From an uncultured Robiginitomaculum sp. (GTDB taxonomy: Bacteria; Pseudomonadota; Alphaproteobacteria; Caulobacterales; Maricaulaceae): DNA of 35,970 bases. A model generated the notes under the pieces. The model did no database searches and was not told the origin of the DNA. It saw only the letters and a program-made list of their open reading frames with translations. Each line of letters starts with the position of its first letter. Position 1 is the stretch's first letter. Both the position numbers and the translations under genes were made by a program. Shown here one piece after another: positions 1,560-24,915 of the stretch. The DNA is taken from NCBI GenBank assembly GCA_938001945.1, contig CALLBH010000051.1, positions 1 through 35,970 of the forward strand. The letters run 5' to 3'.

Positions 1560-3623
1560 TTAAGCGATTTGCAAAGCCGTTTGCGCATCATCTTCGAAAA
1601 CGGTCTCAAGGGCCGTTATTAAATCTGAAAAATTGAGCGGCTTGGGTATTGCGTAATTCATACCGATATTTCTACAAATTCTAACCTGTTGATATTCAGG
1701 GTCAGCCGTAAGGGCGATGATTTTAGTATTGGCCCAACTTGTTTGGCTGTTTCGGATAGCGATTGTTGCCTCGATGCCATCCATGATGGGCATATGAATA
1801 TCCATGAGAATTACGTCAATATGGCGGTTTCTAAGAACCTCAATCGCCTCTTGTCCGTTATCTACAATCACAATTTCAGCAATTCTTGGTTCAAGCAGAG
1901 AGCGCACGACAAGCTGATTAATCTGATTGTCTTCCGCCACAAGCACCGTCAAACGGCTAAGGTCTACTGGAGCGCGCTCTTCGGCAAATACGTTCGTTCT
2001 TGGCTGTGATGAGCGCGGTGCTGGCGGCTGTATTGCGTCGCTCATGCTCTCGCGGCGCACCGTGGTGGCCCTTGGCAGCGCGCGCCGTTCTCCTTCACGC
2101 CGTTTAAGCGGAAAAGACAGTGCAAATGTTGTGCCTTGGCCGAGCTCACTTTTGGCCGTGACTTTGCCTCCCATCAGTTCTGCCAATTGTTTTACAATGG
2201 ACATCCCGAGGCCCGTTCCGCCGTAATTTGCCGAAGTGCTGTCTGTGGCTTGTTGGTAGGGCGTGAAAACGTCTGCAAGCTGCTCCTGCGTCATTCCTAT
2301 GCCTGTGTCACGAATAGCCGTAACGAAGAATGGCTTGTCGCCGCGTTCAACGATCGTTGAAATAATGTCAACTTGACCATTTTCAGTAAATTTAATCGCG
2401 TTGGATAAAAGATTGTTGAGGCACTGATGGTACCGTAGAGGGTCGATGATGAGCGTGTCAGGAACACTCTCCAGGACATTTAAATTCAACTGTGTATTGT
2501 TGCTTTTTGCGCGTTCAACCCAGAGTCTTTTTATGTCTTTTAGCATCTTACGCGGAGCGGATAATTCAGGCAATAATTTTAACTTATCAGCTGAAATTTT
2601 AGCGTGATCCAGCGTCTCATCCATAAGCTTAAGAAGCATGTTGGCACTGTCACGAATAATTCCAAGTTCTTGCGTAATATGACTGGCGCTTTGGTTTTGC
2701 AAAAGCGCTTCCGTCATACCTAAAACACCATTCATTGGCGTTCTGATCTCATGGCTCATATTTGCGAGGTAAGCGTTTTGGGCTTTCACCATGCGCTCAG
2801 CTTCTGATGCACGGCGTTTCAACGCGCGGATTGAACCGCGATCTTCAGTTTGATCCAGAACGAGGCAGTTCACACCGATGGCTTTTCCATTTTCCGCAAA
2901 AATCGGAACGCCAATATTACGTTTATATGTCGTGCCGCTTTGCTCGAGCACCAAGCGGTAAGAGAAATCCATGATTGTTTTTGATTTAAAGGCCTTGTCC
3001 CAATTTGCTTTTACTTTGGGGAGATCGTTGGGGTGTATAAGTGGCCAGAATCCATCTTTATGGACGCGGTCCAGTTCAGCTTTAGATAAATGCTCACGAA
3101 TAGAATCGCTAAATGTGAATTTACCGGTGCGTAGTGAAAATTGCCAATATCCCGCGCCCGCTGAATTGATAGCCAGGTCCATTAATTGCTCGCGGCGTTT
3201 GCGATCTGTAATATCCTCTGAGAGCACAATTGCGCTGCCATCTTCGGCGTAGGTTCTCTGCGCATGTATAACGCGCCCATTTGAGGATGTGCGTATGACA
3301 TCCTCCGTAGAGACTTTGCGTGCGGCGGACCTCTTCAAAATATTGTTCCACAGCGCATCTATATCTGCATCGGGGCCATAGTCGCCGCGTTTTATTGCAA
3401 ATTCGAGAATGTTTTTAGATGAACGACCCGATTTATATAGATCGGTCGGAACATTTGAGTGAATCAAGGCTGCAGCGTTATGGGTGACTACATTCAGATC
3501 TGTGTCGAGTATCAATACGCCTTTGCCGAGACTCTGGCCTAAAGGTTCTAAAAAGGCCAATATTTGACTCTCTACGACGTTAGATTCAAGCGTTGAAGCT
3601 TGTAATGTTTTATCATGTGCCAT
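1560..3623 (-). CDS. PAS-domain hybrid sensor histidine kinase with C-terminal receiver
   Basis: H-box MSHEIRTPMNG, N-box NLLSNAIKF, G-boxes DTGIGM and GGTGLGMSIVKQ, REC VILMDIHMPIMDG. Confidence 0.93.
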   Translation of the reverse strand: MAHDKTLQASTLESNVVESQILAFLEPLGQSLGKGVLILDTDLNVVTHNAAALIHSNVPTDLYKSGRSSKNILEFAIKRGDYGPDADIDALWNNILKRSAARKVSTEDVIRTSSNGRVIHAQRTYAEDGSAIVLSEDITDRKRREQLMDLAINSAGAGYWQFSLRTGKFTFSDSIREHLSKAELDRVHKDGFWPLIHPNDLPKVKANWDKAFKSKTIMDFSYRLVLEQSGTTYKRNIGVPIFAENGKAIGVNCLVLDQTEDRGSIRALKRRASEAERMVKAQNAYLANMSHEIRTPMNGVLGMTEALLQNQSASHITQELGIIRDSANMLLKLMDETLDHAKISADKLKLLPELSAPRKMLKDIKRLWVERAKSNNTQLNLNVLESVPDTLIIDPLRYHQCLNNLLSNAIKFTENGQVDIISTIVERGDKPFFVTAIRDTGIGMTQEQLADVFTPYQQATDSTSANYGGTGLGMSIVKQLAELMGGKVTAKSELGQGTTFALSFPLKRREGERRALPRATTVRRESMSDAIQPPAPRSSQPRTNVFAEERAPVDLSRLTVLVAEDNQINQLVVRSLLEPRIAEIVIVDNGQEAIEVLRNRHIDVILMDIHMPIMDGIEATIAIRNSQTSWANTKIIALTADPEYQQVRICRNIGMNYAIPKPLNFSDLITALETVFEDDAQTALQIA

Positions 3624-4426: not shown

Positions 4427-5032
4427 GTGTCAACGAGAGGAACTGTCGTGGAAAAACAATTTGTTAGCGCGGAGCAACTTCTTTCAGACTCATTTGAACT
4501 TGCGCTAAGGATATTCGAAAGCGGGTTTCGACCGACCTATGTTATTGGAATTTGGCGCGGAGGGGCGCCGATAGGCATTGCCGTTCAGGAAGTTTTAGAG
4601 ACGCTGAAATGCCCTACGGATCATTTTGCAATTCGCGCATCATCATATGGCGGAGCTAAAGTTCAGGCCGATCAGATTGAGGTGAGGGGGCTTGAGTGTG
4701 TGATTAAATCTGTCGGTACGGAGGATAAAATACTCATTGTAGATGATATTTTTGACAGTGGCCGCACGATTGATACCATTATTGAAAGGGTTGAAGCGAG
4801 CTGCGGTTCGGCCATTCCGCAGGATATTCGAATAGCGACAGTGTATTTTAAACCAAACCGCAATTTGTCACTCCGCACGCCCGATTATTTCATACACAAG
4901 ACAGACGCTTGGACAGTGTTTCCGCACGAATTACGAGGCTGCAGTGAGAGCGAGCTTAGGGCGAACAAAAGTCTACCGGACCGGTTTTACACTCTCTTGA
5001 AAGCTACAAATATTGAACAATTCGAAGACTAA
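4427..5032 (+). CDS. Phosphoribosyltransferase (hypoxanthine/xanthine PRTase-like)
   Basis: PRPP-binding motif ILIVDDIFDSGRTIDTII; IGIWRGGAPIG; GTG start 6 bp after tdk. Confidence 0.82.
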   Translation: MSTRGTVVEKQFVSAEQLLSDSFELALRIFESGFRPTYVIGIWRGGAPIGIAVQEVLETLKCPTDHFAIRASSYGGAKVQADQIEVRGLECVIKSVGTEDKILIVDDIFDSGRTIDTIIERVEASCGSAIPQDIRIATVYFKPNRNLSLRTPDYFIHKTDAWTVFPHELRGCSESELRANKSLPDRFYTLLKATNIEQFED

Positions 5033-7065
5033 GCGGCGACCTCATTTTGAAGCTTATCATCGGAGCTAAGCAGGACATCTTCGATAACTTTCATGATCTC
5101 GCGGCGCTTTACGGGCTTACCTAAAGTGCCGTCCATACCAATGTTTCGACAAATTCTAAGCTGTTGATAATCAGGATCAGCCGTTAGTGCGATAATGATG
5201 ACATCAGCCCAATCTCTATCACTGTTACGGATCGCAATCGTAGTTTCTATGCCGTCTTTGATTGGCATATGAATATCCATCAAAATTACATCAAAGGCTT
5301 GGGTATGAAGGATATCTAATGCTTCTTGCCCATTATTGGCAAATGTGAGGGAACCAATGCTCTTTTCAAGAAGCTTTTTGACGAGGACCTGATTGATATC
5401 ATTATCTTCAACGCAGAGCACGCGAAGGCCACTAAATAAGTTCTCCGCATCAAAAGGGAGTTTACCTGCGGTGACGGTAACTTGTTGAACAGGAGGTACA
5501 AAGGCTTCTACGCTTTGCGCCAAAGGTTCTGCTTCTATTTCCGTGCTAGCAACAGGCGGTTCTACTTCGGTAACCTTGAGCCCTGCTGCATGTCCATCTA
5601 CTGGCAAACTCACCACAAAGGCGGTGCCTTTACCTGCAACGCTTTGAACTTTGATTTCTCCGTCCATGACTTCAACGAGCTGCTTCACAATGGACATGCC
5701 TAGCCCTGTGCCGCCAAACCGTCGTTTAATTGTATTGTCGCCTTGAACAAAGGGGGCAAATAGCGTGGACAAAGAGGCTTCATCCATTCCGATGCCATTG
5801 TCTTTGACGATTAGGCACACGGAGTTGTCTTTGAGTGTTGCGCCAATAATGACTTCACCGCCGGCCGTAAATTTAATCGCATTTGAAATCAGGTTATGCA
5901 GCGTTTGCTTTGTGCGATTTAGATCGAGGCTAACAACTTCCGGGAGACTCTTCGAGAGCTTTAGCGTCAGTTTTACATTGTTTTCTTTGGCTTTCGCATC
6001 CCAACTTCGTGTCATATTGCGCAGGATTTCAGCAATATTCACGTCTTCTCTGTCAACTTGATCCTTCTGGGAGCTCATGCGGGCGTGATCTAACGTATTG
6101 GTCAGCAGGCTGTCTAAACCCTCGGCAGAATTCAGAATATATTTTAGCGACTCTTTGGCGTCAGCGGGCAAAACGTCATCAAGCATTGCGTCGCTCATGC
6201 CAATAATGGCGTTAAGCGGCGTTTTAATTTCATGAGACATTTGCGCAAGGAAACGGCTTTTGGCTTCCGAGGCTTCCGTGGCTGCCTCGAGTTCGCGTTG
6301 TGTTTTTATGTCGTCTGTTATGTCTGTAACAAATGCCGTGAATCCAACCTTCTTACCATTTTGGTCAATTTGTGTCGCGCCAACATTGCGCAGATATAGT
6401 TCGCCGTGCTTTTCGAGAACAACCCGGAACGTAAACTCAATCTTATCACCTGTGGCTAGGCTTTTGCCCCAAATGTCCATAATGCCGGGAAGGTCGTCGG
6501 GATGTATGATTGCAAAAAGACCTTTACGGTGAATACGTTCAATTTCTTTTTCGGTTAGCCGCTCTGAGATATATTCAGAAAATTGATATTTTCCGGTTTC
6601 AAAATTTAAAGACCAGAACCCTGAAGAGCCAAGTTCGAGACCCATCTTAAACAAAAGCCGGCTTTTTTCTTGTTCAGTAACATCTTCGGTCGCAATCAAC
6701 AGGCCGCCATTTTCAAGGTAGTGGTGAATAGTGCGAACATAACGTCCGCCCCCAAGAAGGAATATCTCTTCTTCTTTGTGGTCAATTCCTTTTGGGGAAT
6801 AAGTATCATATTTTTCTTTGCGCTCGGCACCGATCTTCGCAGTGACAGTCTCCGGTAGCTTTGACATTTTCAAAGATAATTCGGTGAGTTCGGAGAGCGT
6901 CATACCGGGTTTTAGGATGTCACCATGAAACCCACCAATTGTCTTAAAGGTTTCGGACACGCGGCTCATCACGCCTCTGGAGTCAAAATAAACGTAACCC
7001 ACGCCGACATCATTGGATAAAATATCAGCGATTAGCGTCTTCTTGTTATGTCTCATTATGTTCAT
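5029..7065 (-). CDS. PAS-domain hybrid sensor histidine kinase with C-terminal receiver (paralog of 1560..3623)
   Basis: MSHEIKTPLNAIIGMSD, NLISNAIKF, FGGTGLGMSIVKQ, REC VILMDIHMPIKDGIETTIAIRNS; stop codon overlaps that of the convergent PRTase gene. Confidence 0.93.
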   Translation of the reverse strand: MNIMRHNKKTLIADILSNDVGVGYVYFDSRGVMSRVSETFKTIGGFHGDILKPGMTLSELTELSLKMSKLPETVTAKIGAERKEKYDTYSPKGIDHKEEEIFLLGGGRYVRTIHHYLENGGLLIATEDVTEQEKSRLLFKMGLELGSSGFWSLNFETGKYQFSEYISERLTEKEIERIHRKGLFAIIHPDDLPGIMDIWGKSLATGDKIEFTFRVVLEKHGELYLRNVGATQIDQNGKKVGFTAFVTDITDDIKTQRELEAATEASEAKSRFLAQMSHEIKTPLNAIIGMSDAMLDDVLPADAKESLKYILNSAEGLDSLLTNTLDHARMSSQKDQVDREDVNIAEILRNMTRSWDAKAKENNVKLTLKLSKSLPEVVSLDLNRTKQTLHNLISNAIKFTAGGEVIIGATLKDNSVCLIVKDNGIGMDEASLSTLFAPFVQGDNTIKRRFGGTGLGMSIVKQLVEVMDGEIKVQSVAGKGTAFVVSLPVDGHAAGLKVTEVEPPVASTEIEAEPLAQSVEAFVPPVQQVTVTAGKLPFDAENLFSGLRVLCVEDNDINQVLVKKLLEKSIGSLTFANNGQEALDILHTQAFDVILMDIHMPIKDGIETTIAIRNSDRDWADVIIIALTADPDYQQLRICRNIGMDGTLGKPVKRREIMKVIEDVLLSSDDKLQNEVAA

Positions 7066-8417: not shown

Positions 8418-9983
8418 TTAACCTCCGATTTTGCGAACGACGCGGAAGCCTGTGAAATCATTGCTATCGCCGCGGCGTTGCATCAAGCGCGAGGCATAAC
8501 GCATGTCCGCAGGGCCAGAAAACCACGATCCACCGCGCACGACGCGCTGATTACAGCTCCCGCGTTGATCCGCTTTGCCGTCCGTCGGCGCGTCGCGTAA
8601 GTTCAGCGTGTTACAATCCAGCGTCCATTCGCCAACATTGCCGATCATATCGCGTAGGCCAAATTTGTTCTGACTAAGATTACCCGCAGGAAGCGTTCTA
8701 TCGCTTGATAGATCAGTGCATTGGTCGTTGGCCCAGCGCAGACCGCTTTCTTGCGCTGCGCCATTGGCAAAGGCGCATATCGCGGCCAGAGAGCCGCCTG
8801 CGTAAGCGCCGCTGTCGCCGGCCCGCGCGGCATATTCCCATTGCGCCTCAGAGGGCAGGGCATATGAAAACCCAGTTGTCGATGACAGCCACGCCGCATA
8901 TTTTTGCGCGTCATCCCAGCTTACATTAATCACAGGACGAGATCCGCGTCCCCATCCATTATCGGACGGGCGACCTGAACATCCGCCAGCAGCAACGCAG
9001 GCGTCATATTGCGCAAAGGTCACTTCGGTGACGCCAATCGCGAACATATCGCTAAAAGTAACGGGTCGTTTGGGTTTCTCATTAGGTTTGGCATCGGTTT
9101 CATTATCGCCCGCGCCAAGCTGCGCATTGCCGCTGGCGAGTGTTACCATGGTCGGGCACGCCGCACAGTCTTGGAACTCGCGGCCCGCCGCGGGGCGAAG
9201 TTTCTCCAAGGCTGCAATGGCTTTGGGAACGTGCACACCTCGCGGAAAACTCGTTAGATATTGTTGATAGCTATCCGCGCGGTTTGCTGTTTTGGCAGCT
9301 TCCCATGCCGCATCATCGGCAGCGCTGGCTTTAAGCGTCTCAATTCGCGTGCGCGCTTCAGTTTCGTATTTTCCAGTTGGATGTTTGGAGAGATAGCCCT
9401 CATAAGCTGGAACTGTATTCGTCCCCGCAGCCGTTTCCCAATCGGCTTGATCTTGGCGTGCGCGCTCTGCCGCGTCCTTGCGGCGGGCTTCTGCGGCAGC
9501 TTTCATTTGCGCAATACGCTCGCGGGCTTTGCTCTCGTGCAAGCCTTCGGGCCAGCTCTCAAGATAGTCCTCATATCCTGCAATGGTGTCACGCTGCTCC
9601 GCAGTGGCCCAGTCGCCTTTATCATAAGCATCAATACGGGCTTGGGCATCGTCTTTGTGTTTACCTTCTGGGAAAGCGTCTAAATATTCGCGATATCCTT
9701 CAAGGGTGTCTTTTTCTAAAGCCCTAACCCAAGCTTCGTCATCTGTTGTCTTCTTTTCTTCTTTGACAGTTTCAGGTTCAGGCGTCGTCAAGTTTTCTTC
9801 GGCGACGATATCGACGGGAACGTCTTTGGGAACGATAACTTTCGACGCAAGCCAAACCGCGCCAATGATGATTGCGCCAATAAAAATTGCGCTAACAAGC
9901 CATCGACCCCAAGGGGCGCGTTCATCACGCACATCATATTCAGGCTTGGGTGGTTGCCAGTCCGGCTGCTGCTGCTCACTCAC
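8418..9983 (-). CDS. Membrane-anchored SUMF1/FGE-sulfatase domain protein with N-terminal ~45-aa repeats
   Basis: TM WLVSAIFIGAIIIGAVWLASKVIV; four repeats of type W..A...T...Y..YL..FP.G.H...A...I; FGE-type motifs MVTLASGNAQLG, VTEVTFAQYDACVAAGGC, NVSWDDAQKYAAWLS, LPSEAQWEYAARAG, NVGEWTLD, VVRGGSW, TGFRVVR. Confidence 0.88.
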   Translation of the reverse strand: MSEQQQPDWQPPKPEYDVRDERAPWGRWLVSAIFIGAIIIGAVWLASKVIVPKDVPVDIVAEENLTTPEPETVKEEKKTTDDEAWVRALEKDTLEGYREYLDAFPEGKHKDDAQARIDAYDKGDWATAEQRDTIAGYEDYLESWPEGLHESKARERIAQMKAAAEARRKDAAERARQDQADWETAAGTNTVPAYEGYLSKHPTGKYETEARTRIETLKASAADDAAWEAAKTANRADSYQQYLTSFPRGVHVPKAIAALEKLRPAAGREFQDCAACPTMVTLASGNAQLGAGDNETDAKPNEKPKRPVTFSDMFAIGVTEVTFAQYDACVAAGGCSGRPSDNGWGRGSRPVINVSWDDAQKYAAWLSSTTGFSYALPSEAQWEYAARAGDSGAYAGGSLAAICAFANGAAQESGLRWANDQCTDLSSDRTLPAGNLSQNKFGLRDMIGNVGEWTLDCNTLNLRDAPTDGKADQRGSCNQRVVRGGSWFSGPADMRYASRLMQRRGDSNDFTGFRVVRKIGG

Positions 9984-10756
9984 GATGATGATCCTTCAGA
10001 TTTACCGAGGCGCAAGATAAGATTGTCGAGACAATATTGTCCGGCCTCATTTAGCGCGCGCTCTTCTTTGGATTGAACAATTGACTGTATTAGAACGAGC
10101 ACCGCTGACATGACAAGCGCGACAAGCGTTGTGGTGAACGCTACGCCAAGGCGCTGCGTCACCTGATAGAGAAAATCTTCGGCTTCTGCGTTGGCTGGCA
10201 CTCCAGCATATTGAAGCGCAAACATAATCCCCATCACTGTTCCGATAAAACCGAGGGAGGGGATAAGCCATGTGAGATAACGCAATATGGAATAGCGTAA
10301 ATCGATTTCATGCATGTAGAGCTCAAGTGAAGAATTTAGGACAGATATGGCCTGATCTTCTTTGCGAGATACGCGATATTGGTCGATTGTACGCGTAATC
10401 ATACGCGGCAAAAATGCGCTTTTGGCAAAACGCCGTGAGCTAATACTCTCTTTGATTTGCACTAATGTCGCGACATCTAACTGCCGATCATCTGTAGGCA
10501 AATATCCACGTTTCAGCTGGCTTTGTTCATCGCTGGCGGCGCTCCAACGCAGAAACAACTCGCCAAAGCCAATAAAGAGCGCGACCCACATCACGTTTTG
10601 CACGGTGAAGGGCCAAAATGTAGCGTCGGCATCAAGTAGAATCTCTTGCAGCATCGGGCTCATGGTGAACCGCAAAATACCAATAAATACGATGGCCGCG
10701 AGCACGGACAATAGAAAAACAACCAACCGTCGGATTGTGCTGACTTTAGTAGACAT
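9980..10756 (-). CDS. MotA/TolQ/ExbB proton channel family protein
   Basis: About 4 TM segments; WLIPSLGFIGTVMGIMFAL and LGVAFTTTLVALVMSAVLVLIQ are typical of the family; 4-bp overlap with downstream FGE gene. Confidence 0.85.
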   Translation of the reverse strand: MSTKVSTIRRLVVFLLSVLAAIVFIGILRFTMSPMLQEILLDADATFWPFTVQNVMWVALFIGFGELFLRWSAASDEQSQLKRGYLPTDDRQLDVATLVQIKESISSRRFAKSAFLPRMITRTIDQYRVSRKEDQAISVLNSSLELYMHEIDLRYSILRYLTWLIPSLGFIGTVMGIMFALQYAGVPANAEAEDFLYQVTQRLGVAFTTTLVALVMSAVLVLIQSIVQSKEERALNEAGQYCLDNLILRLGKSEGSSS

Positions 10757-10786: not shown

Positions 10787-11770
10787 TTAATCGCAGACGC
10801 CTTTTTCAGTAGAGGCGAGCGCCATAAATTGTCCGTTATTGTTAATCGACAGATTTTCCATGAAGGCCACGGTGCCGTTATAATCAAAGTAATTTCCCAC
10901 AACAACCGTGTGGATTTCTTTGCGCCCGCCATTCATTTGGGTGATGCGGCGAACAAGTGCATTTGGAGATAATCCATTATTGGCGCGCGGATTAGGTAGG
11001 CCGTCACTGACAAGAAAAATAGCTTCACCCGGACCAGCGAGGAGTTTTTCAAAAGCATCCAACATAGACGCTGAACCGCCAAAACTTCTGGAGATTTGAT
11101 CGGAGAAAGAGATCGCGCCCTCTCGCGCGCCTGCATTGATATTGGAAAGTCCGCCAGTGCTAGGCCAGCTCCTCAGGCGAGGGCCAGTATCAGTTTGCTG
11201 AAATCCGACAACTTTGACGGCGTGATTGTCCTGCAAAGAATTAACAATACGGGTGACAGATTTGGTGACGGAGTCTTCGTGGCCCTGCATGCACTTATTC
11301 ATATCAACGGCGATGACAATGTCGTCCTTTGTCGTTTTCATACCCAAAAAGCGAAAGGACTGAACTACAGGTTTGGGCGCGTCCGTAGGGGCTGGTTTTT
11401 CTTCGACGGGCTCGGGCACAACGATTGCCGGCGCCGCAGCCGCGCGCTTCTCAAGCAGCGCCGCTTCAGCGGCTTTTAATTTGGCCAGAAGTTTTGTTTC
11501 TTCCGACTTTATATCTGATAAATTCGCGCTTGATGCCGATCGTTTTTCCTCAAGCGCTTTTTTCTTGATGACTGTCTCCTCGGCGCTGGTTTCGGCAGCG
11601 CGAAGGAGATCCGCGATGGCGTTATCGATCGGAATGCGCTCGCGTATTTCGTTTTGATAATAAGGAAGCAAGACAATTGCGAGCAGGGCAAAGGCTCCCA
11701 TGGCTGCCGCAAAGAGGTCAATGGCAGAGAGGCTGAAAATCTCAATTGATCGGTCCGGCCGCCGTTTCAT
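10787..11770 (-). CDS. TM-anchored von Willebrand factor A domain protein, degenerate MIDAS
   Basis: N-terminal helix AIDLFAAAMGAFALLAIVLLPYY, coiled coil, Pro-rich linker, vWA core DIVIAVDMNKCMQGH...IFLVSDGLPNP. Confidence 0.82.
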   Translation of the reverse strand: MKRRPDRSIEIFSLSAIDLFAAAMGAFALLAIVLLPYYQNEIRERIPIDNAIADLLRAAETSAEETVIKKKALEEKRSASSANLSDIKSEETKLLAKLKAAEAALLEKRAAAAPAIVVPEPVEEKPAPTDAPKPVVQSFRFLGMKTTKDDIVIAVDMNKCMQGHEDSVTKSVTRIVNSLQDNHAVKVVGFQQTDTGPRLRSWPSTGGLSNINAGAREGAISFSDQISRSFGGSASMLDAFEKLLAGPGEAIFLVSDGLPNPRANNGLSPNALVRRITQMNGGRKEIHTVVVGNYFDYNGTVAFMENLSINNNGQFMALASTEKGVCD

Positions 11771-12711
11771 CGCGCGCGCCCCACGAAATCCCCGCGATTA
11801 TTATTGGCTAAGGCCTGCAAAAATAAGGTCAATCTTTTGTCAGAGGTGTAATCCCCAATCGCAACTGTGTGGATCTCCGCGCGTCCGCGGTTGCGCCTTG
11901 TAATATTGGTTACAATGCTCTCGGGGCTTCCATCATCCGGAGAGCCATCACTGATCAAAATAATGGCTTGGGGTTTTAAATTAAGGGCCCGCACCATGGC
12001 GCTTTGTGTTGGCGTGCCCCCGCCAAAATTATCCGACATACCGCGCACAAATGTGCGGGCTTGAGCCAGAGTTGACGCGCTGGCTTGTTGCATCTGTCCG
12101 GAGCGCGGGAAACTATCATATGTTGGGCCGCCACGATAACCTAATATGACAAAGCGATTATCAGGCTGCATTTGAGACAGAATTTCCTCGAGGGCTTGTT
12201 CGACTTTGGAGGTATGGTCTTCCATTGAACCTGACATATCGACGACGATGACGATGTTCTTTTTGTTGGTTGCAATCCCCAGAATAGAGAACTCGACGCC
12301 TTTACCCGTACTGCGCGGAGGTTGCACTGTGGGTTCAGGAACGGGCGTAGGGCTTGCATCGGGAATGGGAGGCGGCTTAGGAATTTCAACTTCAGAGGTC
12401 TTCTTTAGCACCTCCTGAAGCTTGTCCTCGATGACCGACATATTCTCTTCGGTCGACATATATTGCTTATCAAGAAACCGAATTTCAGCACGCAGCGCTC
12501 TGATTTGTGACATTTCTGTTTGGGTGCTTGAGGCAACAAGGCGGCGTTTTTCCACCATGTCTTCGAGTTCCTCGAAAGAAACATCCGTGCCGCCCAAACG
12601 GTAATAGGGGAACAGTACCAATACGATTAAGATGAATGCGCCCAAGGCTGCCGCAAACAGGTCCAAAGCTGAGATGGAAAAAACCGATATATTGCGCCGC
12701 CGTGACTTCAT
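11767..12711 (-). CDS. TM-anchored von Willebrand factor A domain protein, intact MIDAS
   Basis: N-terminal helix ALDLFAAALGAFILIVLVLFPYY; vWA IVIVVDMSGSMEDH (DxSxS), GGGTPTQSAM, IILISDGSPDD; 4-bp overlap with the next gene. Confidence 0.88.
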   Translation of the reverse strand: MKSRRRNISVFSISALDLFAAALGAFILIVLVLFPYYRLGGTDVSFEELEDMVEKRRLVASSTQTEMSQIRALRAEIRFLDKQYMSTEENMSVIEDKLQEVLKKTSEVEIPKPPPIPDASPTPVPEPTVQPPRSTGKGVEFSILGIATNKKNIVIVVDMSGSMEDHTSKVEQALEEILSQMQPDNRFVILGYRGGPTYDSFPRSGQMQQASASTLAQARTFVRGMSDNFGGGTPTQSAMVRALNLKPQAIILISDGSPDDGSPESIVTNITRRNRGRAEIHTVAIGDYTSDKRLTLFLQALANNNRGDFVGRAR

Positions 12712-12720
12712 GATCAGATA

Positions 12721-13518
12721 TTAACGGCCCAATATACGCCATAACGTGTAAAGCCGTCTTTGGTCTTCTTTTTCTTTGAAATCTTTATCCATATCATTGG
12801 CCAAAGTAATAGCGTCATCCAAGCTTTCACGGTCCATTTCTTTGTTGATAATGTCATTAGAACGCGCCAACCGGCCATCTAAATCTGTCATGTATAACGC
12901 TTCGAGATCATCGATTTCCGTCGTGAAAACCTGAAATTCCATATTGTCGCGCGTTGAGATTAAATTGGCCGCATAATCTTGGCTAGCAAAGGCGTGCGAA
13001 GGGTCATTAGACGCTCCGGCGCGTTCAAGAGACTCGGATAGAATTTGACGAAGAAAAAGGGCGTCTTCAGCAATGAGCGGATCCTCCCAAATAAGGTCAC
13101 CGTCATAGGCTTTTAGGCTACTGATTTGACCGTCTAGATATACGCCGCAGCGATCTTCAAAATCAATCAAATGCTCCATAAACCCGATCACCATTTCAGG
13201 CGCAGCTTGGCGCAGAACCGGATTAGCGATGGCTTCAATAACATCCAATATCGGAGTTTGCGCGTTCACATCAGCGTCGCCATATTGCGAAAGGGCCGCG
13301 CGAAATTGCGGCGTAGCGCCTTCGGCAATATCCTGCGTAAGGCGAAAAAACTGATAGCGCGCAACGTGGTCGTCATTTGGAAAGCCGGACATGACCGTCA
13401 CGCAATATTGCTGGGACGGGGCCACAATAGCGACGTCACCTGAAGGCGCAGCTGTCTGGGCCATAGCTGGTGCGCTGAGCACCGCTAGTCCAGTAATAAT
13501 TGAAAGAAGATGTTTCAT
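12721..13518 (-). CDS. Secreted protein of unknown function
   Basis: Signal peptide MKHLLSIITGLAVLSAPAMAQ; directly abuts the upstream lipoprotein gene. Confidence 0.6.
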   Translation of the reverse strand: MKHLLSIITGLAVLSAPAMAQTAAPSGDVAIVAPSQQYCVTVMSGFPNDDHVARYQFFRLTQDIAEGATPQFRAALSQYGDADVNAQTPILDVIEAIANPVLRQAAPEMVIGFMEHLIDFEDRCGVYLDGQISSLKAYDGDLIWEDPLIAEDALFLRQILSESLERAGASNDPSHAFASQDYAANLISTRDNMEFQVFTTEIDDLEALYMTDLDGRLARSNDIINKEMDRESLDDAITLANDMDKDFKEKEDQRRLYTLWRILGR

Positions 13519-15504
13519 TTAATTCCCTGCGCCCGAAAGACTCATTGGCATTTTGTCAAATGGCGTTGCGACAGGGGAGCCCACAGGCGCCTGCCCGGTT
13601 GGAGTGCCTGCGCTATACGACATGACCTGCGCATTTTTGCCGGCTTTGGTTTCGCGCATTGTTCCGTCTGCGCGTCCTGCGATGAAATTACCCTCCAGCG
13701 CGGTGCTTCCTGCTGCCGTATGGGTTATCATGTAGCCTGCACCTTGCGGTTGCCCGTTAACCGCATATCCGTAATATTCAATCGAGCGACCATCATCAGC
13801 CCGTAGCACGCCAACGCCTGCACCATTCGCTAAACCGTTTTCACATACGCCAAGCCATGTTCCTGACTTTACAGCGCCGTCATGGGTATAGCCGCAACGC
13901 GTCGCGACAGTATCCAGTGAGCGCTGTTTTTGGCTATATAGCGTTTGGAGTTTGCTACGAAGATCTTCAAAGCGGATGGCCGTAATCGTTTCATTTGAGT
14001 CGATTAGATTGACCTGAACTGTTTGCTGCTGCTCCAAAACAGGCGCAACGGAAGAGAGATAATTACTTCCCATCATTTTGGATTGTTTATTCAACGAATA
14101 TGCTTTTGATCCCGTATAGGCGATACCCGCGATGGCGACATCTGTAATGACCTTATTGGCCGCTTGATTACGGCGTTGGCACTCATAATATTCGCGCTGT
14201 GTGCGTGAGCGGCTGCAATCCTGACCAACACCACCATTGGCGATCATCGCGCCAGTCGCGAGCACACCTAAAACTGCCATCGTTGTATTTACATTTTGCT
14301 GACGGGCGAGCTCACGGCGCTCTTCGAGGTGATCATGTTCGGCCTTGAGCATATCGCGGGTCTGCACGCCGATTTCACCATTATAAACACCATCAAACAA
14401 ACGTAAGGATTGCACAGAGAGATATTTTTGCTCGGCTTCCAGCAAACGCTCAGCATAGCGATAGCGCGCGAGATAGTCTGCATCTTGTGATCCGACAATA
14501 GTTAAGGCGGCAAGGCTCGGATCATATTGAGCAATTGCAGCGGCGCGGCTAACCATGGTCGCCTTGTTCACATCCGTGCGGTTAATGATGCCGATGACTT
14601 GATTGGCGAAACCGGAGGAAAATGATGCTTTAAGCGGGTCTTGAACTGACGCGCCTTTAGAATTTATCTTTGCGAGCACTTTTTTATCGAGTTGAATTTT
14701 CTCCAGCGGATATGACGTCACAGTATTTGGCGACATTGAGCCGAATGACTGTGATGGAACGCGCGCAGCGCTATCAGCATTCAAATAAGAAATAAAATCA
14801 AGCGGGGGAACTGATGTTTCAAAGGTTCCATTTTGCAGCGCCGCAAGCGATTGACCAACGCCGCGCCTGCCACTTCCGGCTGAGGTGTTGAGAATCGGAG
14901 CACTCGCTAATTTTAGACCCTGAGTTGGAGCTGCTGCTCTGTGATCACTGTGCACTGTGACGAGCGGAGTCACTAAATCGCCAAATGTCAGGGGCGCTTT
15001 ACCCATCATCTTTTTGGCATCTGGGAAAGAGTAGCTGGTAAAATCGACGGTGACGACGCTGGGCAGGCTTTCTGCTTGTGTCATTGGCTCGGATGTAAGT
15101 TTGCCATTCGCACCAAGTTTAACCGTATGAGGGGAGAGCAAGACGCTGTGCTCTGGCATCTTCGCGGCCATTTCTTTGTAAACAGATAGTGCGTAGTAAT
15201 TAGACTTGATAATCATGCCATCGGCGAGCGCCTGGATCTCTGCGGCATCGCGTTTGTCTTTGGACCATTTGCCGCCAATTCCGCGCTTCGCATAGGCGTC
15301 ATAATAAGCCTGCTTGGCGTCATCTTCAACATGAGCCGGGTAACGCAATACAGCCATGACTGTGCCCGGCGGCGTTTCTTGGCGAAGCGGCTCGGCCATC
15401 GTCGATTTCATTACTGCGGAAGTGCTGATCCCTTTAGCGCTTGTCGCGCAGCCCGTAACCAACACTGCAGTGCTTATTAGAAATGCTGTTTTGACGCGTC
15501 CCAT
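13519..15504 (-). CDS. Large lipoprotein of unknown function, possible MORN-like C-terminal repeats
   Basis: Lipobox FLISTAVLVTGCATS; C-terminal GAGVGVLRADDGRSIEYYGYAVNGQPQGAGYMI...LEGNFIAGRADG. Confidence 0.65.
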   Translation of the reverse strand: MGRVKTAFLISTAVLVTGCATSAKGISTSAVMKSTMAEPLRQETPPGTVMAVLRYPAHVEDDAKQAYYDAYAKRGIGGKWSKDKRDAAEIQALADGMIIKSNYYALSVYKEMAAKMPEHSVLLSPHTVKLGANGKLTSEPMTQAESLPSVVTVDFTSYSFPDAKKMMGKAPLTFGDLVTPLVTVHSDHRAAAPTQGLKLASAPILNTSAGSGRRGVGQSLAALQNGTFETSVPPLDFISYLNADSAARVPSQSFGSMSPNTVTSYPLEKIQLDKKVLAKINSKGASVQDPLKASFSSGFANQVIGIINRTDVNKATMVSRAAAIAQYDPSLAALTIVGSQDADYLARYRYAERLLEAEQKYLSVQSLRLFDGVYNGEIGVQTRDMLKAEHDHLEERRELARQQNVNTTMAVLGVLATGAMIANGGVGQDCSRSRTQREYYECQRRNQAANKVITDVAIAGIAYTGSKAYSLNKQSKMMGSNYLSSVAPVLEQQQTVQVNLIDSNETITAIRFEDLRSKLQTLYSQKQRSLDTVATRCGYTHDGAVKSGTWLGVCENGLANGAGVGVLRADDGRSIEYYGYAVNGQPQGAGYMITHTAAGSTALEGNFIAGRADGTMRETKAGKNAQVMSYSAGTPTGQAPVGSPVATPFDKMPMSLSGAGN

Positions 15505-15664: not shown

Positions 15665-16906
15665 CTAAGCCATTTTGTTCATCAAAAGAACTGCCTTTTT
15701 ATCAGAGGCGCGCATTTTGAGGAACCGCCCTTGGCTAACGCGGCGCATTAGGCGTAATTGAGCCGCGGAGACGGTGTCCATTGTGACGCCTTTTGAGACA
15801 TCGAGATTGTTATCGGCCATGGATTGAGCCGTTTTCGCTTTGGACAGTCCTTGTTCGATTGATTGCTCAAGACTATCTTGATCCAGAGGGGTGTAGTGAA
15901 ATCCTGAGAGACCTTCGCGTTCGGTAACATCAATAAAATCGCCCATCATTGGATAAACAGGCGGCGTTCCATAGATTGCAGCTTGATGCAAAACACCAGA
16001 GCTCCCTGTTGTGCTGTCATAATCGAACACGGCAAGGCGGGCTTGTTTAAAGAAGCCTTCAACGTCCTCTTCGGCGACATAACCGTGGAATTTGATGGCG
16101 TCATCAGATTTGAACATTTTCGCCAAACCCTCCAAATAACCCGGTGTTGCAGGATGATCGCTTCCGCCAATAATGAGGGAAATTTTGTCTTCTTCTGAGC
16201 GGGTTTTATTGATGTTTTGAATGGCAAAAATGAGGCGTTCGAGTTTTTTGTAGGTTCCAAATTTTCCCATCGTCACGATCCTATTGCTGCGCTCAGACAG
16301 GCGATAAGTCTGTAAGGTTGATGCTATTGGAAATGAGCCATGTGGCACCATAAATGCATTTTTTGCGTTGTATTTTGATGTCAAAATTTCGTGGAAACTG
16401 TCCAAGGTCACACTCATATAGCCTGCTTTAAGCATAAGCTTCGTGATTAAGGTTCCAGCCAGTTCAACGATCTTTTGACGAAGCTTTTGGTTCGCTAAAT
16501 TTGTTTGAGCCAAATCGACGGCGTCGATCAGGTTATGCATCAAGACGCCGGTGCCATGGCCTTTAAGCTGGGTTAGCGCGGGGGCAAGAAGTCCAAGGGC
16601 TGCTGGGATTTCTTTGTCCCCAAAGCTAGCCGTTTGCAGGTTAAAGAGCACATTGTCCGGCTTGCATATATCAATCGCTTTGGTGATTTTGTGAACAGAC
16701 AACATGTCGTTAAATGTCCATACGCGGCGCACTTCAATTTTTGGATTAAGATCGAGCTCGGGTAGGGGCTCGTCCATTTTATCGGCAAGGATGATAATAC
16801 GGTCCAGATCAGATCTACGCGCGAATGCATTCGCAAGGTGAAGGGCATATTCATTCAAAGATCCACTACCGGGAGGGAACGCTGTGACGAGGGCTAAAGT
16901 TTTCAT
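15665..16906 (-). CDS. Glycosyltransferase, GT4-like
   Basis: ALVTAFPPGSGSLNEYALHLANAF; NRIVTMGKFGTYKKLERLIFAI; SGVLHQAAIYGTPPVYP. Confidence 0.78.
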   Translation of the reverse strand: MKTLALVTAFPPGSGSLNEYALHLANAFARRSDLDRIIILADKMDEPLPELDLNPKIEVRRVWTFNDMLSVHKITKAIDICKPDNVLFNLQTASFGDKEIPAALGLLAPALTQLKGHGTGVLMHNLIDAVDLAQTNLANQKLRQKIVELAGTLITKLMLKAGYMSVTLDSFHEILTSKYNAKNAFMVPHGSFPIASTLQTYRLSERSNRIVTMGKFGTYKKLERLIFAIQNINKTRSEEDKISLIIGGSDHPATPGYLEGLAKMFKSDDAIKFHGYVAEEDVEGFFKQARLAVFDYDSTTGSSGVLHQAAIYGTPPVYPMMGDFIDVTEREGLSGFHYTPLDQDSLEQSIEQGLSKAKTAQSMADNNLDVSKGVTMDTVSAAQLRLMRRVSQGRFLKMRASDKKAVLLMNKMA

Positions 16907-16946
16907 TGTGATATCTCCTGAGATACATTTTTAATTTGAGTTTGAA

Positions 16947-18443
16947 TTAAAGGTTCGAATTGTGGTTTTTGAAGATTTGAGCGGCTGGAAGAGGCGCGCC
17001 GTGGATATTATAAAGGCCGAAATGTTGTTGCTGTTTTCGCCGCCAAGGTCTGCGGCCAACTACGTCCGTGCTGACATGATCAAAGTCATTTAGCGTCCAG
17101 ACAAAAATACCATCAGCGCTGTCCAAACCGCTCAATTGCGTTTGCAGTCGCTGAGCTTGTTTTTTGGCGCTTTTGCCTTGGGTTGAAAATGGCGACCAGC
17201 GCGTCGTTCCAATTTCGGTAATCATCACGGGCTTTCCATTTGCTTTGGCTTTAACGTAGCTTAAGCGAGACGAAAGACCGTCAAGATCGCGGTAGTCGTG
17301 ATAACTGATGAAATCGATATTGGTCGTCATGGCGTCAACGGCGAGATAATCAGACCACCCTATAGTCAATTTGATATCCGGGTTTGCAGCGCGCGCGGAA
17401 TGGGCCATGACGCCAAGCCACGCCGTAACACTGTCCTGGCCCCAGTTCTCAAAATCTAAATCCGCTTGGTTCTTTAAATCAATTGCAAATAGAGCAGGGT
17501 GATCTCCAATTTGGCCGACGATGTCGTCAACATATTTTGCATCTTTGGCCCAATTGGACATCTGATATTGAGGACGTAAGTCAAACAACGTCACAACAAC
17601 CTTGATGTCATAATCTTCGCAGAAATTTAAAAATCTCATCAATCGTTCTTTAGATAAATCTTTGCTCTCTGCTGCTGTAAAGTCTGCATGATTGAGAAAT
17701 ATACGAACAGAATTTCCTCCAAGGTTCTTGATGAGAAGCAAATCTTTGAGAATTTCGTCCTCGGGGAATTCCGTCCAAAACTCATTCCACGGCGCGCTTG
17801 AGGGGTAGTAATTAATGCCGGATAATTTCCCGCTCAGTTCCAACGTCTCATCGTGATTTCGAATAGGAGTATTTGATGTTACTTCGGATGTTTTTTGCAC
17901 CCAGCCGCCCAGCGTAAACATAAAGCGGATGTTACGCGTTTGATGATCCGTGCTGAGTATGGAAATTGTTTCTGCGCTATTGTCGCGGCGTAACGTAATG
18001 CGCAGCGCCTCTTCGGTAAGGCTGATAATACGCATATCCCCATGCACAAAATTGGGAGTAACTTCCCGCGCAATTAGGATTGAATAATCGCAAAACTTGA
18101 ACTTTACAGTGCAAGATGATCCTGAAACGGCGTCGCCAGCTTGGTCAATATAAACAGGACGATCAAATGTAGTGTGCTGCTTTCTGTCGGAAGCTTCAAT
18201 GATGCGAATAAATGCAGCTTTGTCTTTGGCCGATAATTTTTTTTCATGAGCAATGTTGCCATCAATCCATGTTGTAATGTTGTCTTGTTTAGTTTTCGGA
18301 AGCGCATCAGTGAAATAGTCATAGGAAACCGCAGGGGTGCGAAGGTGTAGCGTAATGGCGGCTCCGCCAATCACTGCTACGCTAAGGATTCCTGCAAATA
18401 AGAGGCGCGGATCCACTAGGTTGGAATATCTTGATAGGTTCAT
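16947..18443 (-). CDS. Membrane-anchored TIM-barrel glycoside hydrolase-like protein (GH5-like)
   Basis: N-terminal TM; LLLIKNLGGNSVRIFL, DIKVVVTLFDLRPQY, HPALFAIDLKNQAD, DFISYHDYRDL, KPVMITEIGTTRWS. Confidence 0.75.
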   Translation of the reverse strand: MNLSRYSNLVDPRLLFAGILSVAVIGGAAITLHLRTPAVSYDYFTDALPKTKQDNITTWIDGNIAHEKKLSAKDKAAFIRIIEASDRKQHTTFDRPVYIDQAGDAVSGSSCTVKFKFCDYSILIAREVTPNFVHGDMRIISLTEEALRITLRRDNSAETISILSTDHQTRNIRFMFTLGGWVQKTSEVTSNTPIRNHDETLELSGKLSGINYYPSSAPWNEFWTEFPEDEILKDLLLIKNLGGNSVRIFLNHADFTAAESKDLSKERLMRFLNFCEDYDIKVVVTLFDLRPQYQMSNWAKDAKYVDDIVGQIGDHPALFAIDLKNQADLDFENWGQDSVTAWLGVMAHSARAANPDIKLTIGWSDYLAVDAMTTNIDFISYHDYRDLDGLSSRLSYVKAKANGKPVMITEIGTTRWSPFSTQGKSAKKQAQRLQTQLSGLDSADGIFVWTLNDFDHVSTDVVGRRPWRRKQQQHFGLYNIHGAPLPAAQIFKNHNSNL

Positions 18444-19138
18444 GACAAAAACCTTTTCGGACAGGTGCTGCTGTAGAGCGGTATTGATTGAGACTGCGTA
18501 GCTGCCGAAACGACGAGGCGAACATCATTAGGGCCAAGCTCTGCGCATTTTACATGCGTGAAAATTTGACCGGATACAATTTTCAGTTGGCGGCTCTTGC
18601 GAATGCCTTGATCTGTCTCGATAGTAAGTGTTGCGATATGCCCGCCCTCAATCAAATTTCCAAAACTATCTGTGAGCTCATTTGTCCGCAGCGTCATGCC
18701 ATCACCGGTCATGCGTCTGCGAAGTGTAAAGGGGGTAAGGTCCCCGCTTCCGATCAAAATTTCAACGGGCGCGGAGGCGATGTCGCCAAGATAAGCCGTA
18801 TAGGTCATGCGCCCGCGCCGCACAGGAGCCGAAAGGTCCATAACGGCTAGTCCATGAATTACGTCGAGTGTATATTGCTCTCCGTTTTGCTCGTTTTTGA
18901 CAGTTACAAATTTTGCATTTGAACTTGCGCCGTTTGCCGTCAATGTTTCAACGGCAATATATAGTGGCTTGCCGGGAAGAACCGATTGAGGGCCAATATA
19001 GAGATCGACGTTAGATGTCGCGCATTCCATTTTCAAAGCATCAGTATCATTTAAACAGGCACTACTTAATGTCTCCCCCAAGGCCGGGGCGGATAGGGTG
19101 AGGCATGTAAGGCCCGTAAATATGTATGTCTTTACCAC
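18440..19138 (-). CDS. Secreted protein, possible Ig-like fold; ATGA-coupled to the GH5-like gene
   Basis: Track start 19174 is a TTG inside a sigma54 -12 element; GTG at 19138 gives a signal peptide VVKTYIFTGLTCLTLSAPALG with GGAG upstream. Confidence 0.6.
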   Translation of the reverse strand: MVKTYIFTGLTCLTLSAPALGETLSSACLNDTDALKMECATSNVDLYIGPQSVLPGKPLYIAVETLTANGASSNAKFVTVKNEQNGEQYTLDVIHGLAVMDLSAPVRRGRMTYTAYLGDIASAPVEILIGSGDLTPFTLRRRMTGDGMTLRTNELTDSFGNLIEGGHIATLTIETDQGIRKSRQLKIVSGQIFTHVKCAELGPNDVRLVVSAATQSQSIPLYSSTCPKRFLS

Positions 19139-19170
19139 CGTGGCGTTCTCCAATTGCTGCTCAATAGGTT

Positions 19171-19185
19171 GCAATGGATGTGCCT
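19171..19185 (-). promoter_or_regulatory. Candidate sigma54 -24/-12 promoter for the 19138→15665 operon
   Basis: Minus strand AGGCACATCCATTGC(A): GGCAC / TTGCA with canonical GG-to-GC spacing; deviates only at the first base of TGGCAC. Confidence 0.72.
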
Positions 19186-19236
19186 GAAATTTCAGGGGAA
19201 AATTGGGGGGTATTTCTCAATATCGAAATATTTTCT

Positions 19237-19269
19237 TTGCAAATCGCAAATCAGTTTCGCGCTTTGCGA
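19237..19269. promoter_or_regulatory. Paired inverted repeats (candidate activator-binding sites) between the divergent sigma54 promoters
   Basis: TTGC-aaatc-GCAA (19237-19249) and TCGC-gcttt-GCGA (19257-19269), centres 20 bp apart. Confidence 0.62.
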
Positions 19270-19299
19270 CGAAAAACGGTAAAAATGATGCCAATTCAC

Positions 19300-19314
19300 T
19301 GGCCTATATTTTGC
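19300..19314 (+). promoter_or_regulatory. Candidate sigma54 -24/-12 promoter for the GT2-STAS/flippase/GT-C operon
   Basis: TGGCCTATATTTTGC, canonical spacing; predicted TSS about 19326, 15 nt before ATG 19341. Confidence 0.68.
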
Positions 19315-19340
19315 GAGGTATGAGCAAAATGGAGGACCAC

Positions 19341-20489
19341 ATGTTGGCACAACAAAACGAAATTAATACAGCCCTCAAATCTTGGGAGCTCGAAAAAACA
19401 GCAATCGTAATTCCGTGTTATAACGAAGCCAGACGGTTGCCGTTAGACGCATTTCTAAATCTAACCCGAGAGCGAGATGATATACGCCTCGTTTTTGTTG
19501 ATGACGGGTCTAAGGACGAAACCATCAGTTTATTGTGCGGCGCCATGGCCGCTTTGCCTGATAAAGTTGACGTCCTGCTCATGAAACAAAATGGTGGAAA
19601 AGCGGAAGCTGTACGCCAAGGCCTTAAATACGCTTCTGGACGCGGGCATAAATATGTCGCCTTTTTAGATGCTGATTTAGCAACCCCAATGGATGCCGTT
19701 CTGGACTTTGCCTCAGTGGCGGATCGCATGGATGAAATTGATGTTGTTTTTGGCTCTCGCAAGGGTGGTTTGGGGCATAAGGTTCACCGAGACTTTAGCC
19801 GCAAAATCATTTCTCTTGTTTGTGCGACGATGGGACGTTTGGCGACGGGTTTGCCAATCCAAGATACGCAATGCGGTGCTAAATTATTCAGAAACACGCC
19901 GCAATTTCGGCGAAGCCTGACACGTGCCTTTTCTGCGGGTTGGCTCTTTGATGTAGAGCTATTCTTACGTGTTTCTCATCCTGACCGTAAAAGGCGCGAT
20001 AATTTCTTTGAGTTTCCAGTAATTGAATGGACAGAAATTCCAGGTTCAAAAATAAAATCTTCTGATGTTCTTAAAAGCGGCTTTAAAATGCTTGCCCTGA
20101 TTTTCAATCAATGGCGAATTCGCGATCGATATTTCAAGAAATCCAGTCAAGACGAAATCGAGGGCTTTCAAACGCTGCGTTGTGGTGAAAACTTAACCAA
20201 GCAAATCTTAGATGAACTTTCAGATCATATTGATCACCAAGTAGATGGGCTAATTTTGGACCTTTCAAAGGTAAAAGTCCTTGCGCCTTCAATATTTACC
20301 ACATTAATCAAAACATGCGATGATATTGAACGCAGCGGTTTGAAGCTCAAAGTATGGCTGCCCCACGATGATCATATTGCGCAAACAGCGCTTCAGACAG
20401 GATTTGCGTCGTTATTTGAGTGCGTTAGAGTATCTGCGCGCCCCGAAATAATGCCAAATCACGACCGCTTTGATATGGTCGAGGTATAA
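19341..20489 (+). CDS. Family 2 glycosyltransferase (dolichyl-phosphate glucosyltransferase-like) fused to C-terminal STAS-like domain
   Basis: TAIVIPCYNEARRLP, LVFVDDGSKDET, VAFLDADLATP, QDTQCGAKLF; C-terminus VDGLILDLSKVKVLAPSIFTTLIKTCDDIERSGLKLKVWLP; start revised to ATG 19341 with GGAGG at 19331-19335. Confidence 0.83.
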   Translation: MLAQQNEINTALKSWELEKTAIVIPCYNEARRLPLDAFLNLTRERDDIRLVFVDDGSKDETISLLCGAMAALPDKVDVLLMKQNGGKAEAVRQGLKYASGRGHKYVAFLDADLATPMDAVLDFASVADRMDEIDVVFGSRKGGLGHKVHRDFSRKIISLVCATMGRLATGLPIQDTQCGAKLFRNTPQFRRSLTRAFSAGWLFDVELFLRVSHPDRKRRDNFFEFPVIEWTEIPGSKIKSSDVLKSGFKMLALIFNQWRIRDRYFKKSSQDEIEGFQTLRCGENLTKQILDELSDHIDHQVDGLILDLSKVKVLAPSIFTTLIKTCDDIERSGLKLKVWLPHDDHIAQTALQTGFASLFECVRVSARPEIMPNHDRFDMVEV

Positions 20490-20492
20490 GTC

Positions 20493-21773
20493 ATGATTGC
20501 TTCAACCCTCAAATCCAAATGGGCAAGTTTTGATTTTTTAGGCCCTGCGGCAATACTGTTCCTCTCGGTCAATATTGCCAATGTTGCAAATCTATTATTC
20601 AATATGTTGTTTGCGCGGCTTATGACGCCAGCCCAATTTGCCGATTTAACGCTATTGTTGACGATTAAACTCGGTATTCTGTCACTCTTTACAGCAATTC
20701 AATTTGCCGTTTCGGAAATTGCCGCGTCGCAACCTAATGAAACGGCGGCAAAGACATTTGCAGCGCGTCTATCTCGCGCAAGTTTTAAATATTCTCTGCC
20801 ACTCTGTTTTCTAATGCTGGTCTGCGTCGAAAGTCTCTGCCAGACCTTTAATCTTGCAGACTGGAAAGCCGTTGCAATTTTATGCGCGGCGATCCCTTTA
20901 TTTCTTCCTATGGTAATTTATCGGGGTCTTGCGCAAGGCCGCATTGATGTAAAGAAAATGGTCGGCTCTGTTCAGAGTGAGTGGATTATTCGTCTTGCAG
21001 GCTGCTGGATTCTTTACCAAGCGGGTTTTGGACTGCTGGGTATCGCAGTCGCTTTGGTTTTATCCATCATCGCTGCATTTGTGTTTGCATTAGACAAAGA
21101 TGATATGGCCTGCCTTGTAGCCTCAAAGCCAGTAATGGGTGCTAAGCATCGTTCGTTATTGCTTACGAGCCTTCCTTATGGCGTTCTGTGTTTCGCCCAA
21201 ATTATCGCGTTGGACAGCGATATCCTCATTGCAAAAGCGATGTTTGATAACGATTCAGCGGGCATTGCCGCGGGTATTATGTTGATCCAGCGTATCTTCT
21301 TTTTCGCATTTTTATCATTTGCGATGATTTTACAACCGATTGTTAGCGCAAAAACGGATGCGGCCCATCAATTTAAGAGTCTTTGGGTTCTTCTCAGTTG
21401 CGTCGCATTTATATCTGTCTGCGGTATCGGCGTTATGGCCCTCATGCCGGATTTGTTTGTCATGATCTTTTTGGGCGAACAATATGCAGCGGCGGGGACA
21501 TATGTCGTTTTAGCCGGATGTATCGGCGCAAGCTTTACGATCGCGCATTTATGTACGGTGTTTTTGATCGCAAAAGGCCGGTCCTACGCTCCTCTTTTAC
21601 TGCTGATCTTTGTAACCCTACATATTTGCTCAAATTTAACCGCGTTTAATACAATGTTGGATTATAATCTGGGCGAGTACCTGTCCATAAAGGCTGTAAT
21701 TGTCGGTTTTGGGGCGCTGAGTGTTGCGTCCTACACATTTTGGGATGCGCTAAGGATGAAACGGACTGCATGA
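20493..21773 (+). CDS. Polysaccharide biosynthesis/flippase-like membrane protein
   Basis: Multi-TM; NIANVANLLFNMLFARLMTPAQFADLTLLLTIKLGILSL typical of Wzx/PST-type N-terminus. Confidence 0.75.
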   Translation: MIASTLKSKWASFDFLGPAAILFLSVNIANVANLLFNMLFARLMTPAQFADLTLLLTIKLGILSLFTAIQFAVSEIAASQPNETAAKTFAARLSRASFKYSLPLCFLMLVCVESLCQTFNLADWKAVAILCAAIPLFLPMVIYRGLAQGRIDVKKMVGSVQSEWIIRLAGCWILYQAGFGLLGIAVALVLSIIAAFVFALDKDDMACLVASKPVMGAKHRSLLLTSLPYGVLCFAQIIALDSDILIAKAMFDNDSAGIAAGIMLIQRIFFFAFLSFAMILQPIVSAKTDAAHQFKSLWVLLSCVAFISVCGIGVMALMPDLFVMIFLGEQYAAAGTYVVLAGCIGASFTIAHLCTVFLIAKGRSYAPLLLLIFVTLHICSNLTAFNTMLDYNLGEYLSIKAVIVGFGALSVASYTFWDALRMKRTA

Positions 21774-24814: not shown

Positions 24815-24815
24815 A

Positions 24816-24853: not shown

Positions 24854-24915
24854 ATATTAGTCTGAATTAGTGATCAATTAACCATCTAAGCCATTGTTTT
24901 TATTGAAGGGCTGAC

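Follow-up and report, generated by a model that had tools for sequence, protein, structure and literature searches.

The window, by which we mean the whole 35,970-nucleotide stretch analysed here (positions 1 to 35,970, forward strand, of contig CALLBH010000051.1, assembly GCA_938001945.1, from an uncultured Robiginitomaculum sp.), encodes two vWA proteins that probably form the central pair of axle subunits in an ion-driven motor of the TolQ/MotA type. Reading this pair as the ion-binding axle of a 5:2 motor has good support but falls short of proof. Both vWA genes lie on the minus strand, and the coordinates and frames given for them in a previous sequence-only reading of this DNA proved exact. 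The genes lie in the following run, listed from upstream to downstream:

13519-15504, minus strand: lipoprotein, 661 aa, lipobox VTGC-A
12721-13518, minus strand: periplasmic protein, 265 aa, with a signal peptide
11767-12711, minus strand: vWA1, 314 aa, Pfam vWA domain
10787-11770, minus strand: vWA2, 327 aa, paralog of vWA1 with a degenerate MIDAS
9980-10756, minus strand: MotA/TolQ/ExbB-family channel subunit, 258 aa, PF01618
8418-9983, minus strand: FGE-fold protein, inner-membrane-anchored, PF03781
7226-8371, minus strand: secreted or periplasmic protein, 381 aa

The vWA2 start overlaps the vWA1 stop by 4 bases, a gap of 30 bases separates vWA2 from the channel gene, the channel and FGE-fold genes overlap by 4 bases, and the two genes upstream of vWA1 abut each other. 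Given this spacing, the seven-gene run from 15504 to 7226 looks like a single minus-strand transcription unit. A promoter and terminator scan returned promoter-like sites in a number not above expectation. By eye, the adjoining region at 15665-26402 has the look of a polysaccharide cluster, with glycosyltransferases, flippase-like and large membrane proteins, and a TolC-like outer-membrane protein. At 1560-3623 and 5029-7065 lie two hybrid histidine kinases that resemble each other, with thymidine kinase-like and phosphoribosyltransferase-like genes between them (also by eye).

The genes for vWA1, vWA2, the channel, the FGE-fold protein and the 381-aa protein are syntenic in 8 of 8 relatives from within the family; all seven relatives whose contig reaches that far also have the two upstream genes. 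This putative seven-gene operon, with its synteny across relatives, is one of the things that our analysis adds. Within the family the system is patchy, occurring in 9 of 25 genomes (the window's own included), some incomplete. A wider scan of one genome per prokaryote species gave 39 alphaproteobacterial loci (Hellea, Robiginitomaculum, Algimonas, Litorimonas and uncultured relatives) and about 19 loci of a second type, mostly from Gammaproteobacteria (Lysobacterales, Chromatiales and Oceanospirillales-like) with one labelled Alphaproteobacteria; distant relatives also turned up in Bacteroidota and Planctomycetota. Searching 399 genomes of the phylum concerned with a profile yielded a third clade, with the helix F-[ST]-[LI]-S-F-L-D-I. 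Two Planctomycetota vWA proteins (L103, 7200-8606; L104, 8001-9425) each have a variant helix around MLDVFCCALGC and a MotA-family gene within a few kilobases upstream, and it is possible that they form a further clade of the same motor type. A Bacteroidota vWA protein (L100, 4125-5369) has the same Asp helix and, by eye, a PP2C-like gene near it; no motor gene was detected within the stretch fetched for that locus.

The membrane helix, its aspartate and the channel

vWA1 is predicted to be a single-pass protein with its N-terminus inside, made up of a transmembrane axle helix, a coiled coil, a Pro-rich linker and the vWA domain. In both vWA1 and vWA2, a basic N-terminus precedes one N-terminal transmembrane helix of the form F-S-x-S-A-[LI]-D-L-F-A-A-A-x-G-A-F:

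12601-12681, minus strand: putative axle helix of vWA1, residues 11-37, FSISALDLFAAALGAFILIVLVLFPYY; codon of D17 at 12661-12663
11657-11737, minus strand: putative axle helix of vWA2, residues 12-38, FSLSAIDLFAAAMGAFALLAIVLLPYY; codon of D18 at 11717-11719

The AlphaFold2 model of vWA2 sets its helix at residues 15-44. The N-termini quoted in the sequence-only reading are correct, and the segment D-L-F-A-A-A-x-G-A-F that it saw in both paralogs is indeed there. It had proposed the Asp as an ion-binding residue, and in orthologs this Asp is kept in every distinct homologous helix that could be read (131/131, paralogs included), from Alpha- and Gammaproteobacteria as well as more distant relatives. 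For this count, frames were read back to the previous stop and the helices were located by flanking residues without use of the Asp. Five exceptions to the helix reading trace to a truncated gene, to starts extended in error, or to a diverged Planctomycetota helix in which the Asp is still present. In an alignment of 35 sequences from several phyla, just six positions are invariant: M1, S14, D17, G145, D158 (the first MIDAS Asp) and G307.

The gene that follows vWA2 had been called a MotA/ExbB-family channel, and it does match PF01618 above the curated cut-off (E=4.7e-12). Its residues T173 (codon 10238-10240) and T210 (codon 10127-10129) align with the invariant threonines of the genome's own TolQ. 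In a set of 27 channel proteins (all clades and the genome's TolQ), the residues L86, P166, G169, G172, T173, V174, G176, A206, T210, L214 and Y241 are invariant. The channel profile had zero matches among solved structures, so the mapping of these residues rests on the TolQ alignment. In MotAB and ZorAB, a Ser/Thr ring around the axle Asp is described as the ion site (PMC11890865; see also PMC9389320). The threonines kept by the window's channel correspond to those around this Asp in MotAB, ExbBD, TolQR and ZorAB.

Neither a Pfam scan nor a genome search found a MotB, ExbD or TolR gene in the cluster. Elsewhere in the genome, the PF01618 genes are tolQ in the tol cluster, two exbB genes each followed by exbD, and one sub-threshold match, while the three ExbD-family genes occur only on two other contigs, in tol and exb loci. 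MotB was not found in this genome, which is 77% complete. Because the ExbD genes sit with their own tolQ or exbB and MotB was not found, the vWA pair would occupy the axle position by exclusion. D17 and D18 very probably lie inside the adjacent TolQ-like channel, at what would be the pore position.

The sequence-only reading had aligned the two helices by eye to a MotB helix, and the MotB sequence that it used is right (alphaproteobacterial MotB, AYADFVTAMMAFFLLLWL). We compared profiles of the vWA helix with MotB and ExbD/TolR reference helices drawn from the same class as the window using HHalign. The proposed relation to MotB stood up, weakly, and that to ExbD did not. Against MotB, the vWA helix scores 19.6 over 22 columns without gaps, the two Asp residues being aligned (E=4.4e-4 for this comparison taken alone), and the HHalign probability of 34% is below significance at database scale. 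Only 1 of 300 column-shuffled profiles did as well, or 2 of 300 with the Asp held fixed, and control membrane segments from the same operon score 6-14 (up to 15.3 against an alpha-only profile). Against ExbD, the score of 11.8 is at chance level and was matched by 83 of 300 shuffles. The accepted homologs MotB and ExbD score 12.0 in the same test, so it has little power for such short helices. Furthermore, the MotB reference set was chosen by an Asp-containing pattern; therefore, the test adds the register, not the Asp. The resemblance of the vWA helix to that of MotB is modest, and the invariance of the Asp and the gene company are the stronger evidence.

The vWA proteins match neither the Pfam MotB nor the ExbD models (including the ExbD/TolR domain PF02472), MotB_plug (PF13677) was found neither in them by the Pfam scan nor in the genome search, and in place of the OmpA-like peptidoglycan-binding C-terminus of MotB they end in a vWA domain. 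The vWA helix profile had zero matches among solved structures. The channel has a weak match to the ZorA profile (E=1e-4), and no other Zorya model matched any of the seven operon proteins scanned. Membership in the MotB, ExbD/TolR or Zorya families was ruled out, as the defining domains are missing. Two further regions contributed nothing: L202 is a weak helix match with no vWA or motor cluster seen, and L203 is a region of 100 bases.

The vWA heads and the envelope partners

Pfam recognises a vWA domain in vWA1 (E=2.7e-14). For vWA2 the Pfam match stays under the cut-off (E=0.0018), but solved vWA domains match its AlphaFold2 model. The orthologs of the two proteins share about 31% identity with BLAST E values of 1e-33 to 1e-51, which marks them as paralogs. 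Their metal sites differ:

12226-12240, minus strand: MIDAS of vWA1, DMSGS, residues 158-162; full motif DMSGS...T...D
11291-11305, minus strand: degenerate MIDAS of vWA2, DMNKC, residues 156-160

The MIDAS is intact in all 58 readable homologs of vWA1 from the alpha and second (Lysobacterales-type) clades, whereas it is lost in all 54 vWA2 proteins, where the variants are DxNxC, DxSxC, DxNxY, DxNxF and one DxSxR. Both vWA members show DxSxS in those proteins of the third clade that were read. A midpoint-rooted tree, with some long branches, groups vWA2 as one clade of alpha and gamma members (support 99/96). The MIDAS asymmetry would therefore either predate the alpha/gamma split or have been transferred as a unit. 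Judged from these alignments and the tree, the vWA pair is ancient and asymmetric, and the split between an intact MIDAS in vWA1 and a degenerate one in vWA2 is a further addition of this analysis.

The inner-membrane-anchored FGE-fold protein (PF03781, 6e-49) combines helical repeats with an FGE-fold domain in the periplasm. Among solved structures, PvdO and PorK/GldK come closest to it. We looked for the active-site Cys pair after GGS[WY], at positions that we take from human FGE, and found that Cys is missing from both positions in all 45 of the motif matches read. A role as a formylglycine-generating enzyme was ruled out on the absence of this pair; the protein may have a PvdO-like enzyme activity. 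Motor and FGE-fold genes occur together at 37 of the 39 alpha loci, both exceptions being on short contigs, and the FGE-fold gene is also present in most second-clade motor loci long enough to show one, as well as in the third clade. An FGE-fold protein lacking the Cys pair is, by gene company, a standing partner of the motor in three clades with differing gene orders.

In the second clade, this protein bears a cytoplasmic Ser/Thr kinase domain and FHA genes are nearby; the kinase fusion suggests that phosphorylation regulates the output in those relatives. The third-clade protein bears PEGA domains. The kinase-FGE fusions with adjoining FHA genes were seen in gamma motor clusters at L079 (12934-15363), L085 (12614-15028) and L078 (10372-12822). 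At L089 (5873-7972, second clade, with an alphaproteobacterial label), a Ser/Thr kinase is fused to a right-handed beta-helix beside the motor genes; FHA and PP2C genes are present, and no FGE domain was detected at this locus. In the T9SS ring, PorK serves as a docking hub without enzymatic activity, and the PorLM motor presumably supplies this ring with energy (PMC12421860). The FGE-fold partner, fused to a Ser/Thr kinase in Gammaproteobacteria, is likewise added by this analysis and recalls PorLM and its PorK ring by analogy.

The lipoprotein encoded by the first gene has an alpha/beta domain, a long helical stalk and C-terminal MORN-like repeats. Its AlphaFold2 model has a mean pLDDT of 79.9, and the best PDB matches are MORN proteins (E=2e-3). 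The 265-aa protein is conserved in the operon and near some gamma (second-clade) clusters. The 381-aa protein has a low-complexity tail rich in Ala, Gln and Lys, and its N-terminal part is kept beside the FGE gene in alpha and gamma clusters.

Known systems and rival explanations

The link between vWA domains and an ion-driven stator, as drawn by the sequence-only reading, is supported by the invariant Asp and the weak MotB match, with motor function as a prediction. It is not new, as such systems were already proposed in June 2025 (PMC12204202, Mol Biol Evol, msaf138). The available part of that paper describes a TPH-vWA class of heterologous vWA gene pairs beside tolQ homologs without tolR/exbD, found throughout Proteobacteria and Verrucomicrobia. 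The transpore helix of the class bears the MotB/ExbD/TolR aspartate, which AlphaFold3 models place inside a threonine ring. As far as that text defines the class, the window resembles it in having a heterologous vWA pair, a putatively pore-entering helix with the Asp, and a neighbouring TolQ-like gene with the Thr residues, and in having no tolR, exbD or motB and no SHLS motif. This likeness was drawn by features; the paper's own query proteins come from Idiomarina loihiensis. The FGE-fold partner, the kinase fusion, the MIDAS split and the seven-gene operon are not discussed in the available part. The novelty of a vWA axle is low because the class has already been published as a prediction; full-text literature searches returned no experimental study and no phenotype for any member.

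Among characterized motors, MotA/MotB shares with the window a MotA-family channel and a helix whose Asp aligns in register with the ion-binding Asp of the MotB axle, but the periplasmic part in the window is vWA, with no OmpA-like domain or MotB_plug match. TolQ/TolR and ExbB/ExbD share the PF01618 channel with both invariant threonines; unlike TolR and ExbD, the vWA proteins lack an ExbD/TolR domain, and their helix profile does not match that of ExbD significantly. The PorL/PorM (GldL/GldM) motor of T9SS and gliding is, like the window's putative one, encoded with a non-catalytic FGE-fold protein. However, PorK is a lipoprotein of the outer membrane that forms a ring together with PorN, whereas the window's FGE protein is anchored in the inner membrane, PorN and Sov were not seen, and the axle proteins are unrelated. 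The defence motor ZorA/ZorB is MotAB-like with a conserved Asp and a Ser/Thr ring (PMC11890865), but the seven operon proteins scanned include no ZorB, ZorC, ZorD or ZorE match, the channel has no long ZorA cytoplasmic tail, and the operon is kept with envelope proteins. In the AglRQS gliding motor of Myxococcus, too, a single channel is paired with two distinct axle proteins (PMC9389320); AglQ/S are reported to be single-helix homologs of MotB, in contrast to the vWA proteins here.

We propose that five channel subunits surround one vWA1 and one vWA2 helix (5:1:1) and that ions, either protons or sodium, bind D17/D18 and thereby power a relative rotation in steps. Motion or force would then travel through the periplasmic coiled coils and vWA heads to envelope partners. 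Gene context and the likeness to PorK would make the non-catalytic FGE-fold protein the most likely dock, linking the motor onward to the MORN-repeat lipoprotein. Metal-dependent ligand binding at the MIDAS would be confined to vWA1, with vWA2 as a structural partner. Candidate end uses are adhesion, envelope maintenance, secretion and movement of surface material.

The same parts could instead form a regulated ion channel or signalling device in which the FGE-fold and vWA domains sense the envelope state and gate ions or a kinase pathway. The type VI secretion threonine-phosphorylation pathway (PpkA/TagR) is a model for such sensing and gating, and the kinase fused to the gamma FGE-fold protein, with FHA and (at L089) PP2C genes in the cluster, fits it. 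We regard this reading as unlikely, though worth keeping in view: the window's own FGE protein has no kinase domain, a Pfam scan found no FHA gene among the operon proteins, and a kinase could regulate a motor as well as replace one. Alternatively, the vWA helices could sit outside the channel as passive force transducers like TolA or TonB, with another protein as the axle. Such binding is predicted, in the available part of PMC12204202, for another vWA family with a TonB-like SHLS/His helix. For the window it seems quite improbable, as the SHLS motif and its His are absent from the vWA1 and vWA2 helices, which carry the invariant Asp instead, and the operon offers no TolR, ExbD or MotB, the genome's ExbD-family genes being placed in the tol and exb loci. 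Finally, the modest MotB similarity and absent ExbD similarity could mean that the Asp only helps an ordinary membrane anchor to pack or dimerise and that the channel pairs with another subunit of its own. This we find scarcely credible: a membrane-helix Asp among six residues invariant across several phyla is hard to explain so, and a channel with an intact Thr ring always adjoins where the neighbourhood is known.

Going beyond the axle reading, we tentatively picture an envelope motor of Proteobacteria that a kinase can tune and whose axle is obligately asymmetric: one vWA head could bind a ligand by way of a metal, the other could not, and the motor would push or rotate against an FGE-fold docking hub. 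Such a machine could be a convergent counterpart of the type IX secretion/gliding motor and its PorK ring, a possibility that we rate as rather doubtful. Named, culturable genera (Litorimonas, Algimonas) carry the operon, which makes knock-outs conceivable; the FGE-fold partner and the MIDAS split would be testable handles on what the motor pulls and how. If the axle reading is true, bacteria would possess a widespread motor, driven by ions, in which the moving parts terminate in vWA domains, a fold known chiefly from adhesion and protein binding.
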